From Alphaproteobacteria bacterium (GTDB lineage: Bacteria > Pseudomonadota > Alphaproteobacteria > Reyranellales > Reyranellaceae): a stretch of 64,000 bases of DNA. Positions within the stretch are counted from its first letter, which is position 1. Each line of letters begins with the position of its first letter. The position numbers and the translations under genes were made by a program. A model generated the notes under the pieces. It saw only the letters and a program-made list of their open reading frames with translations, was not told the origin of the DNA and made no database searches. The DNA lies in assembly GCA_017308235.1 (NCBI GenBank), contig JAFKFL010000025.1:1-64000 (forward strand), given 5' to 3'. Positions 23,983 to 32,098 of this stretch are shown here, piece after piece.

Positions 23983-25608
23983 CTACCCGACCGTCTCGAG
24001 ATTGAAGGCCGCGGCGATCAGCGCCTTGGTGTAGGGCGTTTGCGGCTGGCCAAAGACCTGGTTGGTCGAGCCGCGCTCCACGACCTTGCCGTCGCGCAGC
24101 ACCACCACCTCGTCGGCGAGCGCGCGCACCACCTTGAGGTCGTGACTGATGAAGAGATAGGCGAGCTTGTGGCGCGCCTGAAGGTCGCGCAGCAGGTCGA
24201 CGATCTGCGCCTGCACGCTCATGTCGAGGGCCGAGGTCGGCTCGTCCAGCACGATGAAGCGCGGCTTCAGCACCAGCGCGCGGGCGATGGCGATGCGCTG
24301 ACGCTGGCCGCCCGAGAATTCGTGCGGATAGCGGTCGCGCACGCCGGGATCGAGCCCGACCTCGCGCAGGGCTGAGTCGATCATGCCCGCGCGTTCTCCC
24401 GCCGTGCCGATGCCATGCACCTCGAGGCCTTCGCCCACGATCTCCGCCACCGTCATGCGCGGGCTGAGCGAACTGAACGGATCCTGGAACACGATCTGCA
24501 TCTGCCGGCGCAGCGGGCGGATGTCGCGTTGGCCCAGCGCCTGCAGGTCCTGGCCGTCGAAGCGGATGCCGCCCTCGCTTTTCTCCAGTCGCAGGAGGGC
24601 GAGGCCGAGGGTCGTCTTGCCCGAGCCCGATTCACCCACGAGGCCGATGGTGTGGCCTTCCTTCAGGGCGAGGCTGACGCCATCGACCGCCTTCACATAG
24701 CCGATGGTCCGCCGCAGCACACCGCGCTTGATCGGGAAGTGCACCTTGAGATCGTCGAGCCGCACGATCTCCGGCGCGGCGGGATCGACCTCGACCGGCC
24801 GGCCCTTGGGCTCGGCAGACAGGAGATGCCGTGTGTAGGCGTGGCGCGGACGCTCGAAGATCTCGGCCACCGGGCCCTGCTCGACGATCTCCCCCTGGGT
24901 CATGACGCACACCCGGTCGGCGATCTTGCGCACGATGCCGAGGTCATGGGTGATGAAGAGCAGCGCCATGCCGTACTTCGCCTGCAGGCTCTTCAGGAGC
25001 TTCAGGATCTGGGCCTGGATGGTGACATCGAGCGCCGTGGTGGGCTCATCGGCGATCAGGAGGTCCGGATCGTTGGCGAGCGCCATGGCGATCATCACGC
25101 GCTGGCGCTGGCCGCCCGAAAGCTGATGCGGATAGGCGTCGAGGCGCTTGGCGGCCTCGGGGATGCCGACCTGCTCCAGAAGCTCGAGCGTGCGCTTGCG
25201 CGCTGAATTGCGCGACAGGCCCTTGTGCAGGATCAGCACTTCGTTCACCTGCCGCTCGATCGTATGCAACGGATTGAGCGAGGTCATCGGCTCCTGGAAG
25301 ATCATCGACACGCGATTGCCGCGCACCTGCAGCAGATCGCGCGGCGGCGCGCCGACCATCTCCTTGCCCTGGAAGCGGATCGACCCCGTAGGATGGCGCG
25401 CCGTCGGATATGGCAGGAGCTGCAGCACCGACAGCGCCGTGACCGACTTACCCGATCCTGACTCGCCCACCAGCGCCACCGTCTCGCCGCGGCGGACATC
25501 GAAGCTCACGCCCTTCACGGCGGCGACCGCGTTGCTGCCCGCGCCGAATGTCACCGCGAGATCATGTACCTCGAGGAGGCCTGTGTCTCTGAGGGGGGCC
25601 TCGCTCAT
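23983..25608 (-). CDS. yejF: ABC transporter ATP-binding protein with two ATPase domains (YejF type)
   Basis: Start at 25608 ([19 protein letters not shown]), overlapping the yejE stop by 4 bases. 541 residues with two ATPase domains, each with Walker A ([24 protein letters not shown]), signature ([16 protein letters not shown]) and Walker B ([24 protein letters not shown]). This fused form belongs to the peptide/microcin transporter family YejABEF. It powers uptake through YejB-YejE. Last gene of the operon. Confidence 0.95.
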
Positions 25609-26624
25609 GCCAGCGCCTTGCGCGGATTGAAGGCGTCGCGCACCGCTTCGCCGATGAACACCAGCAGCGCCAGCATGAGGGCGATGACGATGAAGGCGGT
25701 GAAGGCGAGCCACGGCGCGGTGAGGTTGTTCTTGCCCTGCAGCACCAGCTCGCCCAGCGACGGCGAACCTGGCGGCAGGCCGAAGCCCAGGAAGTCGAGC
25801 GAGGTGAGCGTGGTCACGGAGCCGGCCAGGATGAAGGGCAGGTAGGTGAGGCTCGCGGTCATGGCGTTGGGCAGGATGTGCCGCATCATGATGCGCACAT
25901 CAAGCATGCCGAGCGCCCGGGCGGCCCGGACATAGTCGAAATTGCGGCCGCGCAGGAACTCCGCCCGCACATAGCCCACCAGCGCCATCCAGCTGAACAG
26001 CAGCATGATGCCGAGCAGGATCCAGAAGCCGGGCTGGACCAGGCTTGCCAGGATGATGAGCAGATAGAGCGTCGGCATGCTCGACCAGATCTCGAGAAAG
26101 CGCTGGAAGGAGAGATCGATCCAGCCGCCGAAGTAGCCTTGCACCGCTCCCGCGGCGATGCCCACGATCGAACTCAGGATGGTGAGCGCCAGGCCAAACA
26201 GGACGGAGATGCGAAAGCCATAGATCACGCGCGCCAGCACGTCGCGCGCCTGGTCGTCGGTGCCGAGCGGATGGGCGAGCGACGGCGGCAGGAGTGAGGT
26301 GCGGTGCTCGCTCTCGACGACGGTGTCATAGCTGTAGGGGATGAGCGGCCACACCATCCAGCCTTTGGCGTCGATCGCGTCGCGGACCTCCTTGTCGGTG
26401 AAGACCGCGTTGGTCGGCAGGTCGCCGCCGAAGGTCGTCTCCGGATAGTCGCGGAACACGGGCATGTAGAAGTGGCCGTCGTAGCGGACCAGGATCGGGC
26501 GGTCGTTGGCCAGGAATTCGGCGAACAGCGACAGGAAGAACATCGCGCCGAACAGGACCAGCGAGATCATGCCGCGGCGATTGGCACGGAACTGCGCAAG
26601 CCTGCGCCGGGTGACCGCTCTCAT
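25605..26624 (-). CDS. yejE: ABC transporter permease (YejE type)
   Basis: Start at 26624 ([18 protein letters not shown]), overlapping yejB by 4 bases. 339 residues, the YejE size. Early helix [20 protein letters not shown] is followed by a periplasmic part ([20 protein letters not shown], the YejE-specific insertion) and the permease core with the EAA-like loop [20 protein letters not shown]. It forms the channel with YejB. Confidence 0.95.
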
Positions 26625-27721
26625 GCGCCGCGGGTCGCGAAGTCGATGCGCGGATCGACGACGGTGTAGACCAGGTCGCCGACGATGTTCATGACGAGGC
26701 CGATCAGACCGAAGAAATAGAGCGTGCCGAAGATCACCGGGTAGTCGCGGTTGATGGCCGCCTCGAAGCCCAGCAGCCCCAGCCCGTCGAGCGAGAAGAT
26801 CACTTCGGTGAGCAGCGAGCCAGTGAAGAGGGCGGCGACGAATGCGGCCGGAAAGCCCGCGATCACGATCAGCATGGCGTTGCGGAAAACGTGGCCGTAG
26901 AGCACACGGCGCTCGACTAGGCCCTTGGCGCGGGCCGTCATGACATATTGCTTGCCGATCTCGTCGATGAACGAGTTCTTGGTGAGGAAGGTGAGACCGG
27001 CGAATCCGCCCACCACCATCGAGGTGATCGGCAGCACCATGTGCCAGAGATAGTCGGCGATCTGCGAGGCAAGGCCGAGGCTGTGCCAGTCGTCGGACAC
27101 CAGGCCGCGCAAGGGAAACCACTGGAAATAGCGGCCGCCCGCGAACACCACCACCAGCAGGATGGCGAACAGGAATCCGGGGATGGCGTTCAGCACGATC
27201 AGGAAGGTCGAGCTCGAGAGGTCGAACCGGCTGCCGTCACGCACGGCCTTGGCGATGCCAAGCGGAATCGACACGAGATAGACCAGCAGCGTGGTCCAAA
27301 GGCCGAGCGAGAGCGAGACCGGCATCTTGTCCAGCACCAGGTCGACCACGCGGCTGTTGCGGAAGAAGCTGTCGCCGAAGTCGAAGACGGCGTAGTTCTT
27401 CACCATCAGCCAGAAGCGCTCGTAGATCGGCTTGTCGAAGCCGTACATCTTCTCGATGCGCTGAATCAGCTCCTTGGGCAGCCCGCGCGCGCCGCGATAG
27501 GTGCTGTTGCTCTCCTGATTCTGGCCGCGCTTCATCAGCTCGCCACCCGAGGAGCTGCCTGAGAATCGCTCTGTAGCGCCGACAGCGGTGCCCTCGATGC
27601 GGGCGATCATCTGCTCGACCGGCCCGCCCGGCGCGGTCTGGATGATGAAGAAGTTCAGCACCATGATGCCGAACAGAGTCGGCACCACAAGCGCCAGCCG
27701 CCGCAGGATGTAGGCGAGCAT
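26621..27721 (-). CDS. yejB: ABC transporter permease (YejB type)
   Basis: 366 residues starting [20 protein letters not shown]. It has the DppB-like start, a YejB-specific hydrophilic insertion (about residues 45-90, including [20 protein letters not shown]), about six helices and the cytoplasmic coupling loop [20 protein letters not shown]. It pairs with YejE. The stop overlaps the yejE start by 4 bases. Confidence 0.95.
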
Positions 27722-27758
27722 CAGGGGGTTCGCATTTGACAGGCAACCAGCGAGGATA

Positions 27759-27845
27759 GAAACCGTGTCATCCTGAGGCGAAGCCGAAGGATCCTTGGCT
27801 GCGTCGAGGAAAGATCCTTCGCTGCGCTCAGGATGACACGGTTTC
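27759..27845. repeat. Palindromic repeat family A (A5), inside the yej operon
   Basis: The most perfect family A copy: GAAACCGTGTCATCCTGA and TCAGGATGACACGGTTTC are exact inverted complements (18 bases), with inner AAGGATCCTT and AAAGATCCTTCG. It lies in the yejA-yejB gap, the position where REP elements often stabilise the binding-protein message. Confidence 0.85.
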
Positions 27846-27866
27846 TGTCTTCGACCTCCCCGGCCA

Positions 27867-29720
27867 TCACGTCTTCTTCTCCCCGCGGTTCGTGAGCGCG
27901 CGGTCCTTGGTCTCGTCGACCCACCAGCTGTCGAAGGCGAGCGGCTCGTATTTGGCCGTCTTCTCCGGCCGGCCGAAGCGGTTCCAGTAGGCGACCAGCG
28001 CCTTGCCGGAATAGAACTGCGGGACCACGAACATGTGCCACGACAGCACGCGGTCGAGGCAGCGGGTGCGGGTGATCAGGCTCTCGCGGGAGGGCGCGGA
28101 GATGATCAGCTCGACGAGCTGGTCGATCGCCGGATCCTTGATGCCGATGGTGTTGCGGCCGCCCGGGATGTCGGCCGCCTTGGAGCCCCAGAAGTCACGC
28201 TGCTCGTTGCCCGGCGACAGCGATTCGCCCCAGAGGTCGATCACCATGTCGAAATCATAACTGTCGGTGCGGCGCTGGTATTGCGAGGTGTCGACGGTGC
28301 GGATCGTCATCTCGATGCCGAGACGGTCGAGGTTCTGCTTCACCGGCAACGCCATCTTCTCGAACGCCGCATCGTTCAGCAGGATCTCGAAGGCGAGCTT
28401 GCGGCCGTCCTTGTCGGTCATCTTGCCGTTCTTGATCTCCCAGCCCGCGGCCTTCAGGAGCGGGATCGCCTGGCGCACCTGTTCACGGATGTTACCGGAG
28501 CCGTCGGTCTTGGGCGGCTCGAACTCGGCGGTGAAGACCTCATCGGGAATCTTGCCGCGCAGCGGCTCCAGGATCTTGAGCTCGTCAGGCGAGGGCAGGC
28601 CCTTGGCCTCGAGCTCGCAGTTGCCGAAATAGGAACGCGTGCGCTGGTAGAAGCCGTAGCTCAGGTTCTTGTTCTGCCATTCGAAGTCGTACATCAGGCC
28701 GATCGCCTGGCGCACGTTGCGGTCCTTGAACATCTCGCGCCGCGTATTGAATACGAAGCCCTGCATGGGCGTCGGGTTTTCATGCGCGATCTCGGCGCGC
28801 TGGATGCGGCCGTCGGCGACGGCAGGCAGGTCCTTGTAGCCGATCATCCAGTTGCGGCCTGAGTTCTCGCGGCGGATGTCGGTGTCGCCGCCCTTGAAGG
28901 CTTCGAAGATGATGGTGTTGTCGCGATAGTAGTCGTAGCGGATGGTCTCGAAATTGTTGCGGCCGCGGTTGAGCCACAGGTCCTTCGCCCACCAGTTGGG
29001 CACGCGGCGATAGGTGATCGCACGCCCGACATCGACCGAGTCGACCTTGTAGGGGCCGCTCGCCAGCGCCGGCTCCAGCGACACCGTCTCGAAGTCTTTG
29101 CTCTGCCACCATTTGGACGGCAGGATCGGCAACTGGCCGAGGATCAGTGGCAGCTCGTGGTTCACGCCGCTGCTGAAGCTGAAGTGGACCTTGGCGTCGC
29201 CGACCTTCTCCGCCTTCAGCACATCGGCATAGTACGCGGCGTAGTTCGGCCGCCCCTTGCTCTTCAGGATGTCGAAGCTGAAGACCACGTCCTCGGGCGT
29301 GATCGGCGTGCCGTCATGCCACTTGGCCTGCGGGCGCAAAGTGAAGGCCACCCAGGAGCGATCGTCGGGCCATTCGATGGTCTCGGCGATCAGGCCATAG
29401 ACAGTGAAGGCCTCGTCCGGCGACTGCCGGCAGAGCGTCTCCCAAAGCATGTCGATGCCGACCGCCGGCACGCCCTTCAAGGTGAAGGGATGGAGGGAGT
29501 CGTAGGTGCCGAGCGTGCCGAATTTGACCGCGCCGCCTTTGGGCGCTGATGGATTCACGAACTCCGGCGGCCCGGCGTCGGCGGGATATTTGGGCTCGCC
29601 GTGCATGGCCATGCCATGGCTGACATTGACCTTCGACGCACTCTGCGCCCGCAGGATCGCCGGCGCCCCGACCCAAAGGGCCGCACCGCCCGCCAGAATG
29701 CCGCGCCTGCCGATTGCCAT
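27867..29720 (-). CDS. yejA: ABC transporter substrate-binding protein, family 5 (YejA type)
   Basis: 617 residues. A signal sequence [20 protein letters not shown] with RR is followed by [20 protein letters not shown] and [20 protein letters not shown], the YejA start. Core blocks: [40 protein letters not shown] and [20 protein letters not shown]. It delivers peptides (or microcin C-like compounds) to YejBEF. First gene of the operon, separated from yejB by repeat A5, suggesting more message for the binding protein than for the permease. Confidence 0.95.
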
Positions 29721-29903: not shown

Positions 29904-30830
29904 ATGGCCGACACAACGGATTTCGCTCCCGCTTTCGACGCGCCGATCGAATACATGCGCCGCACGCGCGAGTACTACCTAGCGCTGGGCTACGACAATC
30001 CCTACCGCTGGGCGCACTATGTCGATGCACCGTTCCAGCCGCTCAAGAAGCCGTTGAAGGAAAGCGTTCTGGCGCTGATCAGCACCGCCGCACCTTACCA
30101 GTCCGACAAGGGCGACCAGGGACCGGGTGCGGCCTACAATGCCTCCGCGAAGTTCTATTCCGTCTATTCGGGCGACACCGCAGCCGATCACGACACGCGC
30201 ATCAGCCACATCGGCTACGATCGCAAGCACACGACGGCCAAGGACAGCAACACGTGGTTCCCGTTGCCGCTGATGCGGGAATTTGCGCAGCAGGGTCGCT
30301 TCAAGCTGGCGCCGCGCTTCCATGGCGCACCGACCAATCGCAGCCAGCGCGTCACGCTCGAGACCGACGCCCCGGAGATCCTCGCCCGTTGCCGGCAGGA
30401 CCAGGTCGATGCCGCGTTGCTCGTGCCTACGTGACCCGTCTGCCATCAGACCGTGAGTCTGACTGCCCGATATCTCGAACGAAACGGCATCCCCACCGTG
30501 GTCATGGGGGCGGCGAAGGACATCGTCGAATGGGCTGGCGTGCCGCGCTTCCTGTTCAGCGATTTCCCGCTCGGCAATTCCTGCGGCAAGCCGCACGAGC
30601 CGGACACGCAGCGCTTCACGCTCGACCTTGCGCTCAAGGTGCTGGAGAGCGCCGTCGGCCCGCGCACGACGGTGCAGTCGCCGCTGCGCTGGAACGACGA
30701 TGGCGACTGGAAGCAGGACTTCAACAATCTCGAGCGCATGCCCGCCGAGGAAGTGGCGCGCCGCCGCGCCGACTTCGACAAGGTGAAGCAGGTGGCGCTC
30801 GCCGAGCGCAAGCGGGCGGGCGTGGCTTAG
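29904..30830 (+). CDS. GrdB-family selenoprotein (glycine/betaine/sarcosine reductase B-like), Sec at residue 177
   Basis: Two open stretches, 29904-30434 and 30435-30830, are in the same frame and separated only by a TGA at 30432-30434. Read through, they make one protein of 308 residues. Blocks: DAPIEYMRRTREYYLALGYD at the start, FKLAPRFHGAPTNRSQRVTL, then LLVPT-U-PVCHQTVSLTAR, YLERNGIPTVVMGAAKDIVE, and FSDFPLGNSCGKPHEPDTQ. The U-P-V-C element (Sec177, Cys180) is a Cxxc-like redox centre, and I recall relatives with Cys at this position. A perfect hairpin follows the TGA at the right distance for a bacterial SECIS. Family: PF07355-like GrdB/PrdB reductases; GrdA and GrdC partners are not in the window, so the substrate is open. 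If Sec is not inserted, a 176-residue fragment results. The start has no strong ribosome site. Confidence 0.85.
30432..30462 (+). promoter_or_regulatory. Candidate bacterial SECIS element
   Basis: The TGA (30432) is followed by a perfect 6-bp stem TCAGAC (30446-30451) and GTCTGA (30457-30462) with loop CGTGA (30452-30456). The G and U in the loop are positions 22 and 23 counted from the T of TGA. In the E. coli fdhF element the SelB-contacting loop G and U are at about 23 and 24. An outer GC/GC pair could extend the stem after a 2x2 internal loop. The geometry is seen; SelB binding is inferred. Confidence 0.7.
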
Positions 30831-30834
30831 TCAA

Positions 30835-30884
30835 CGGACCGCGGGCTTCCAGCCCGCTCTTGAGCGCGCTGGAAGCGCGGTCCG
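30835..30884. repeat. Palindromic repeat family C (C2)
   Basis: Arms CGGACCGCGGGCTTCCAGC and GCTGGAAGCGCGGTCCG pair nearly perfectly around CCGCTCTTGAGCGC. It starts 4 bases after the selenoprotein stop and shares the GGACCGCG outer arm with the copy at 5283-5377. Confidence 0.75.
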
Positions 30885-30904: not shown

Positions 30905-32098
30905 ATGAGCAAACCTTTCACCGGCGTCAAAATCCTCGATTTCACGCGTGTGTTGGCGGGCCCCTACGCCTCCTACCAGCTCACCCTGCTGGGCGCCGAC
31001 GTCATCAAGGTCGAGTCCCGCGAAGGCGACGACATGCGGTTCGGCAATCGCGCCGGCGATTGGGAGAAGCGCGGGCTTGCAGCTCCCTGGGTGGCGGTGA
31101 ATGCCGGCAAACGCTCGATCACGCTCGACCTCAAGAAGCCCAAGGCGATCGAGATCATCAAGCGCCTAGCCGCGAAGGCCGACGTGGTGATGGAGAATTT
31201 CCGTCCCGGCGTGATGGACAAGCTCGGCATCGGCTACGAAACGCTCCGGGCAATCAATCCGCGCCTGATCTATTGCGCCGTGTCGGGTTTCGGCCAGGTC
31301 GGGCCGGCCGCCAAGACCGCGGCCTTCGACGGCATGATCCAGGCCATGTCGGGGCTGATGTCGATCACCGGCTTCCCGGCCAACGGCCCCACACGCGTGG
31401 GCTTCGCCGGCGCCGATGTGATGTCGGGCGCGACCGCGGCGTTCGGCGTCGCCTCGGCGCTCTACCAGCGCACCCATACTGGCAAGGGCCAGCTCGTCGA
31501 TGTCGCCATGATCGACGCCGTGATGGCCTATCTCGCCCAGCAATTCACCGAGCACATGATGACAGGCCGTGTGCACGAGCAGGCGGCCAATCTCTCGGTC
31601 ACCCGCAAGCCCACGGGCAATCTCTTCAAGACCAGGGACGGCTGGATGGTGCTCGCGGTGATGACCGATCCGCAGTTCCAGCGTCTCATGAAGGTCCTGG
31701 GTCGCGAGCAGGCGCTGGCCGATCCGCGCTTCGTCGACTGGCCTACCCGCATCCAGAACAACCAGGCCCTGCACGAAATCGTCGAGGGCGCGATGAAGCA
31801 GGAGACCTCGGCGACCTGGGCCGAGCGCTTCGCCAAGGCCGACGTGCCCGCCGGCCGCGTGCTCAGCATCCCAGAGACCGCACAGCTCGACCTTTTCCAG
31901 CACCGCACCGTGCTGCAGGACGTCGAGACCGAGCACGGTCCGATCCGCGTGGTTGGCTCCGGTTTCCGGCTGGAGCATGGCGGCGGCTCGGTCGAACGGC
32001 CGCCGGCCAAGCTCGGCCAGCATACCGACGAGGTGCTGGGCGAGGCGGGCTATTCGCCGGCGGAGATCGCGGAGATCCGCCGCACCAGCGTGGTCTGA
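30905..32098 (+). CDS. CaiB/BaiF (family III) CoA-transferase
   Basis: Start at 30905 (MSKPFTGVKILDFTRVLAGP), 397 residues. Class III blocks are YQLTLLGADVIKVESREGDD, NAGKRSITLDLKKP, VMENFRPGVMDKLG and YCAVSGFGQVGP; the conserved Asp is in FAGADVMSG. A paralogue of the enzyme at 2253-3455 but only moderately similar. It lies 74 bases downstream of the selenoprotein gene, with a palindrome between, so a shared transcript is plausible and a functional link possible. Confidence 0.92.
   Translation: MSKPFTGVKILDFTRVLAGPYASYQLTLLGADVIKVESREGDDMRFGNRAGDWEKRGLAAPWVAVNAGKRSITLDLKKPKAIEIIKRLAAKADVVMENFRPGVMDKLGIGYETLRAINPRLIYCAVSGFGQVGPAAKTAAFDGMIQAMSGLMSITGFPANGPTRVGFAGADVMSGATAAFGVASALYQRTHTGKGQLVDVAMIDAVMAYLAQQFTEHMMTGRVHEQAANLSVTRKPTGNLFKTRDGWMVLAVMTDPQFQRLMKVLGREQALADPRFVDWPTRIQNNQALHEIVEGAMKQETSATWAERFAKADVPAGRVLSIPETAQLDLFQHRTVLQDVETEHGPIRVVGSGFRLEHGGGSVERPPAKLGQHTDEVLGEAGYSPAEIAEIRRTSVV

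Follow-up and report, generated by a model that had tools for sequence, protein, structure and literature searches.

Two open stretches in one reading frame, parted by a single TGA, raise the question of whether they are two genes, one broken gene, or one gene in which the TGA is read as selenocysteine (Sec), and of what the product might do. They lie in a stretch of 64,000 nucleotides (the window) from an alphaproteobacterium of the family Reyranellaceae (assembly GCA_017308235.1, contig JAFKFL010000025.1). An earlier note on this DNA had read them as a GrdB-family selenoprotein hidden as two open reading frames. The arrangement that it described is borne out. Translation through the TGA yields one product of 308 residues, in which the context of U177 is LLVPT-U-PVCHQTVSLTAR, and the frame closes at a TAG stop (30828-30830). 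The 18 bases between the TGA and the next possible start, a GTG at 30453, are open. Judging from the comparative evidence set out below, the gene almost certainly encodes a selenoprotein. Selenoprotein genes of this type are easily misread as two open reading frames, as happened at 29904-30830.

Table 1. Positions of the selenoprotein gene, its predicted decoding signals and its conserved neighbor in the window.
Feature	Position	Strand	Remarks
Predicted selenoprotein gene, PrdB/GrdB-like	29904..30830	+	308 residues, Sec at 177, ATG start, TAG stop
TGA predicted to be read as selenocysteine	30432..30434	+	UxxC motif U177-P-V-C180; TGA/Cys exchange, SelB co-occurrence, PrdB/GrdB Sec alignment
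Apical stem-loop, putative bacterial SECIS-like element	30446..30462	+	TCAGAC-CGTGA-GTCTGA, starts 11 bases past TGA
Family III (CaiB/BaiF) CoA-transferase	30905..32098	+	397 residues, conserved downstream neighbor, PF02515

The TGA is shared by homologs and exchanges with cysteine codons. Among the best 80 of the 470 loci encoding a relative, codon 177 is TGA in 48, TGC in 28 and TGT in 4, so that the Cys homologs for which the earlier note had proposed to look number 32. Within these 80, the top relatives with a genus name belong to Reyranella and Enhydrobacter, with protein identities of 84-94%. When all clades are taken together, the site can be placed in 148 gene instances, with TGA in 106 and a Cys codon in 42; this ratio is not a survey, because paralog stretches were mostly fetched for their known TGA. 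A tree of 97 rows, built after removal of near-duplicates, of one row that was too long (L067) and of those falling short of the length limits, requires the Sec/Cys label to change at least eight times; well-supported branches force six of these changes. The preceding residue, 176, tracks the site: within the best 80 loci, 47 of the 48 Sec genes have Thr there and the remaining one Ala, and all 32 Cys genes have Asn.

The source genome carries the machinery for selenocysteine. It comprises 6.31 Mb in 42 contigs, is 98% complete and lies close to Reyranella, an aerobe. The sel genes, whose presence the earlier note had suggested checking, are all there: selB (456 bits), selA (569 bits) and selD (434 bits) score above their cut-offs, as does tRNA-Sec (71 bits, cut-off 47), which ARAGORN also reports as tRNA-SeC with anticodon TCA. 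On contig C15, selA, selB and the tRNA-Sec gene (selC) are consecutive. The genome also holds two more TGA-bearing relatives of the gene, P2 (C15, 286 residues, about 51% identical) and P3 (C36, 390 residues, about 30% identical).

TGA-bearing forms of the gene co-occur with SelB across the class. We found a match in 51 of 385 alphaproteobacterial genomes; any TGA within the match was accepted for these class counts, the exact position being checked on the 148 instances. A TGA lies inside the match in 38 genomes and is lacking in 13. SelB is present in 35 of the 38 versus none of the 13 (Fisher p 1e-9, with genomes that are not independent of one another), and in 30 of 33 versus none of 13 when the gene's own family is removed from the sample. 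The three TGA-bearing genomes giving no SelB are G086 (77% complete), G337 and G386, and one SelB among the 35 (G410) is a fragment under the curated cut-off. Weak non-TGA matches such as those in G217, G211 and G421, none with SelB, fall outside the 148 instances, and their range suggests that they may be P3-type. One of the 13 non-TGA genomes, G145, has a TAG within its match. The matches in G145 (C321, C471), G006:C50 and G003:C10 contain either an in-frame TAG or two to three TGA codons, and could represent disrupted genes or proteins with several Sec.

Within the gene's own order, the association is looser. Among the matches listed there, the gene is matched in 74 of 76 genomes and SelB in 72 of 76. 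Three of these listed genomes (G017, G033, G042) have a TGA-bearing match and no SelB, and six (G009, G019, G036, G038, G045, G065) have SelB together with the Cys form of the same gene. Thus, the Sec or Cys form is not strictly tied to SelB within the order, and the latter six genomes indicate that exchange continues within Sec-decoding genomes.

The bases just downstream of the TGA form a conserved hairpin. The 17 bases at 30446-30462 fold as six pairs closed by a CGUGA loop, with a G in the loop. Codons 182-186 show zero synonymous variation in 49 TGA genes, this one included, and in a single TGA gene the Ser at 185 is replaced by Gly. Of 266 five-codon windows, one is as low in synonymous variation. 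The same codons do vary in the 32 Cys genes. Across 84 distinct 45-mers from TGA genes, pairing holds in 485 of 504 stem cells, versus 20-219 once the pairing partner is shifted by 1-3 bases. The five inner pairs all form in 70 of these 84 sequences versus 1 of 39 Cys 45-mers. Relatives have changed both sides of pairs, giving CAGAC/GTCTG, CAAAC/GTTTG, CAATCC/GGATTG and GCGCGC/GCGCGC. This conserved and covarying hairpin is a putative SECIS that would help the decoding of the TGA. It is weaker in the P3 paralog clade, where the five inner pairs form in 8 of 21 distinct sequences and one pair is G-G in 12 of 21. We dropped minimum free energy as stand-alone proof, since the value is not unusual (z -1.15); it is the comparative evidence that carries the SECIS assignment. 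An Rfam scan of the window returned nothing at gathering thresholds.

These observations bear on whether the TGA could be a real stop. A pseudogene, a sequencing error, or two genes with a genuine stop between them, the GTG at 30453 serving as a start for the second half, has a negligible chance of being the right explanation. The 48 loci that share the TGA all come from other assemblies, and constraint is alike on either side of it: against eight TGA-bearing relatives, pN/pS is 0.07-0.33 upstream and 0.06-0.52 downstream, the downstream value being slightly above the upstream one in more distant relatives. The recurrent TGA, this two-sided constraint, the co-occurrence with SelB and the frozen hairpin codons led us to reject these readings. 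The earlier note's view that the second half is unlikely to be a gene of its own is therefore upheld, and none of the outcomes it had named as counting against a selenoprotein (no sel genes, a true stop in homologs, a base error) was seen.

What kind of selenoprotein would this be? The best family match is TIGR04483 (PrdB), with 78.4 bits and an E value of 5e-22 over residues 43-250, and the equivalog cut-off of 300 is not reached. GrdB-type models score 35-42 bits, and TIGR01918, at 36.8, does not reach its curated cut-off of 65.45. PF07355 passes its gathering score of 22 with 24.8 bits, matching residues 45-176 to the C-terminal part of the profile only. The Sec/Cys column and C180 both align with the corresponding columns of clostridial PrdB and GrdB; identity to clostridial PrdB is 29-32%, and PrdB from two clostridial records, at 31-32%, has its own TGA in the same column, as does GrdB. 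Twenty-three residues are identical across the three proteins of the source genome and the two PrdB, and 14 remain identical when two GrdB are added, including the Sec column, C180, D106, P120, G195, I196 and R215. By sequence comparison, then, the protein is a homolog of PrdB/GrdB that shares their catalytic position and stands outside the equivalog families as curated. Of the GrdB-family assignment in the earlier note, the superfamily and the Sec at the family's Sec/Cys site stand; GrdB as the nearest relative gives way to PrdB.

The protein nonetheless differs from its named relatives. It resembles PrdB, the selenoprotein subunit of clostridial D-proline reductase, in the matched region, the Sec column and the UxxC motif, but it has 308 residues against 238 model positions, a CoA-transferase neighbor, an alphaproteobacterial host and no PrdA/GrdE-type partner found in the source genome. 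With GrdB, GrdF and GrdH (component B of glycine, sarcosine and betaine reductase), it shares a homologous C-terminal half and the aligned Sec column, whereas the Pfam profile is unmatched over roughly its first 215 positions, the TIGR01918 score is under its cut-off and no GrdE was found. RefSeq gives the name “glycine/sarcosine/betaine reductase selenoprotein B family protein” to two plasmid-borne relatives from Roseomonas and Haematobacter, which are 63% and 59% identical (L128, L129); these carry Cys at the site, and the name does not come from testing. A divergent clade (L124:5663-7394 minus, L108:5080-5829 plus, L109:12624-13373 minus) carries Asp where the resolving Cys would be expected, giving UxxD by codons, and the L124 gene stands in tandem with a second GrdB-like gene. 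Asp occupies this column in 4 of the 97 tree rows.

The canonical partner is missing, and another gene is conserved in the neighborhood. PF09338, the family of the pyruvoyl-forming partner (PrdA/GrdE), was not found in the 98% complete source genome; the same search gave 5 matches in one clostridial control record and 3 in another. GrdA (PF04723) gave no match in the source genome and none in the control genomes either. Directly downstream lies a CoA-transferase, which matches PF02515 with 397.5 bits (cut-off 23.3) and is under the cut-off in all seven NCBIfam models matched, the best being succinate--glutarate CoA-transferase (285 versus 750). It is found downstream on the same strand in 68 of 77 loci, drawn from the best 80 of 470 after three with too little downstream sequence were excluded; the gap is at most 50 bases in 45 loci and 51-200 in 23. 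A second count took 101 instances best matched by the 29904-30830 protein, excluding those with less than 800 bases downstream and including a few divergent relatives best matched by the same protein: the CoA-transferase is downstream in 77 and not in 24, and two of the 77 positives are merely 32-33% identical. The pairing extends to Bradyrhizobium, Rhodopila and several further families at 51-66% identity. Since it is common to Reyranellaceae, Bradyrhizobium, Acetobacteraceae and other families at 51% identity or more, the pairing is either old or has been transferred as a pair.

Other neighbors are less constant. An acyl-CoA dehydrogenase adjoins the selenoprotein/CoA-transferase pair in two genomes (one of the two confirmed by Pfam). 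In a sister subclade, a glutaredoxin-like gene lies directly downstream on the same strand in 5 of 8 cases (by tblastn; two of the five confirmed by Pfam), and no glutaredoxin was found beside the 29904-30830 gene. Among the P2- and P3-type genes examined, none of two of each type has the CoA-transferase beside it. Of 22 P3-type genes compared, mostly chosen for their TGA, eight share their stretch with selA or selB, several of the stretches having been cut wide to include a selB of known place; a SelD-like neighbor family occurs in 6 of 21 P3 loci (one checked). Upstream in the window, divergent from the selenoprotein gene, stand peptide-type ABC transporter genes (23983-29720, minus strand). 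These are kept in most Reyranella-side loci; elsewhere, there are only distant ATPase matches. Between the selenoprotein and CoA-transferase genes, a long hairpin (30835-30884) has a z of -7, a stability that none of 200 shuffles reached. In many relatives this spot spans only about 10 bases, and so the hairpin may be an inserted repeat.

An AlphaFold model of moderate confidence (pLDDT 76) shows an alpha/beta core in which U177 lies just past a beta strand and the U177-x-x-C180 motif leads into a helix (180-193). A PDB sequence search gave nothing at E up to 1, and Foldseek against the PDB gave no match at E 0.001 or better. With VIA-align, the best Z was 8.4, and unrelated, mostly Rossmann-like chains scored within 1 of it, a result that neither shows a new fold nor excludes a family.

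In the Grd and Prd reactions, a selenolate attacks the carbon that bears the leaving group, and a thiol then resolves. We propose a mechanism by analogy. SelB and tRNA-Sec would decode the TGA, aided by the hairpin directly downstream. The U177 selenolate would attack the activated carbon of a small carboxylate, C180 would resolve the adduct by forming a Se-S bond, which would then be re-reduced by a glutaredoxin or thioredoxin; the glutaredoxin-like neighbors in the sister subclade suggest such a route. The outcome would be reductive cleavage of the small carboxylate. The neighboring CoA-transferase probably supplies or removes the CoA thioester of the substrate or product. With the pyruvoyl subunit missing, substrate activation as in clostridial D-proline or glycine reductase would be impossible. 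A change of leaving group within the superfamily has a precedent in Synergistota, where cleavage of C-F bonds has been proposed for a Grd-like pair (PMC10838667).

How far do the data favor this mechanism over other roles? The protein is very probably a reductase that uses its UxxC pair. That it is a selenocysteine-containing UxxC reductase of the PrdB/GrdB superfamily acting on a CoA-linked carboxylate is the reading we prefer and hold to be probable, the reaction itself being drawn from analogy; we also lean towards the view that selenoprotein and CoA-transferase act in one pathway. It could instead be a general thiol/selenol redox protein, a disulfide or peroxide reductase or a detoxification enzyme, whose UxxC cycles with glutaredoxin or thioredoxin and whose link to the CoA-transferase is genomic only. 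The way in which UxxC runs into a helix in the AlphaFold model, the glutaredoxin-like genes of the sister subclade, the 24 instances with no CoA-transferase downstream, and the presence of three paralogs in differing contexts within one genome would all suit such a role. We nevertheless consider it unlikely, because residues shared with PrdB (S101, D106, D114, P120, R215, G224 and others) sit away from the redox motif and point to a substrate site, and because the CoA-transferase neighbor is conserved over several families. The 50 structural neighbors listed, mostly Rossmann-like and with no thioredoxin among them, argue weakly in the same direction.

The protein might also be a true component B of D-proline or glycine reductase, served by an unrecognized partner elsewhere in the genome. 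PrdB is, after all, its best model, and the Sec residues align. This is very improbable given a score so far below the equivalog cut-off, the low identity to clostridial PrdB, and a search for PF09338 that was negative in a nearly complete genome and positive in the controls. For the preferred reading, a reductase of CoA-linked carboxylates, the partner of the named reaction is missing in the single genome tested, and the conserved neighbor offers a testable lead to the real pathway.

Reports of abundant selenoproteins called PrdB in metagenomes of the surface ocean go back to 2005 (PMC1088965, PMC2398784). The Sargasso Sea data held 42 Sec “PrdB” genes, the third most abundant among known selenoprotein families (PMC1088965), and the Global Ocean Sampling (GOS) data held 235 Sec and 110 Cys homologs under pfam07355 “PrdB” (PMC2398784). 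The category is therefore not new. These marine “proline reductase PrdB” proteins resemble ours in UxxC and in the PrdB label, a likeness taken from their description; the passages describing them name no operon partner, whereas the 29904-30830 gene has the CoA-transferase. PrdB appears in a 2026 review as a D-proline reductase subunit (PMC13188914). In the literature searched, we found nothing that connects proteins of this kind with a CoA-transferase or with Reyranella. What is new is the present branch and its CoA-transferase partner gene. The earlier note had expected a use unlike the clostridial one and undescribed; the difference is supported by the missing PF09338 partner and the conserved CoA-transferase, and “undescribed” does not hold in view of the published marine “PrdB” selenoproteins. 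A family named for strictly anaerobic amino-acid fermentation is now tied to whole Sec-decoding alphaproteobacterial genomes. It is conceivable, though we would not bet on it, that these proteins form a separate alphaproteobacterial class of Sec reductases that dropped pyruvoyl chemistry, uses CoA-activated carboxylates and is re-reduced by glutaredoxin, and that the surface-ocean “PrdB” belong to it and have been misnamed as proline reductase for twenty years.

The selenoproteome of the source genome extends beyond this family. A passage of a 2006 survey credits Alphaproteobacteria with one selenoprotein family, formate dehydrogenase (PMC1794560). We count at least four predicted selenoproteins in this genome, from two families other than formate dehydrogenase, the fourth being just under its model cut-off. 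This fourth candidate belongs to the UGSC family (L026:2565-3080 minus, on C15; NF041046, 120.9 bits versus a cut-off of 125) and lies beside selA-selB-selC. By eye, its UGSC-xx-C motif is similar to the UGTC-xx-C of GrdB. The adjoining gene (L026:3095-4252 minus) encodes 385 residues that match no Pfam or NCBIfam model. At another locus, L158, a P3-type gene, selA and selB are accompanied by a UGSC frame and by a 35% relative of this adjoining gene.
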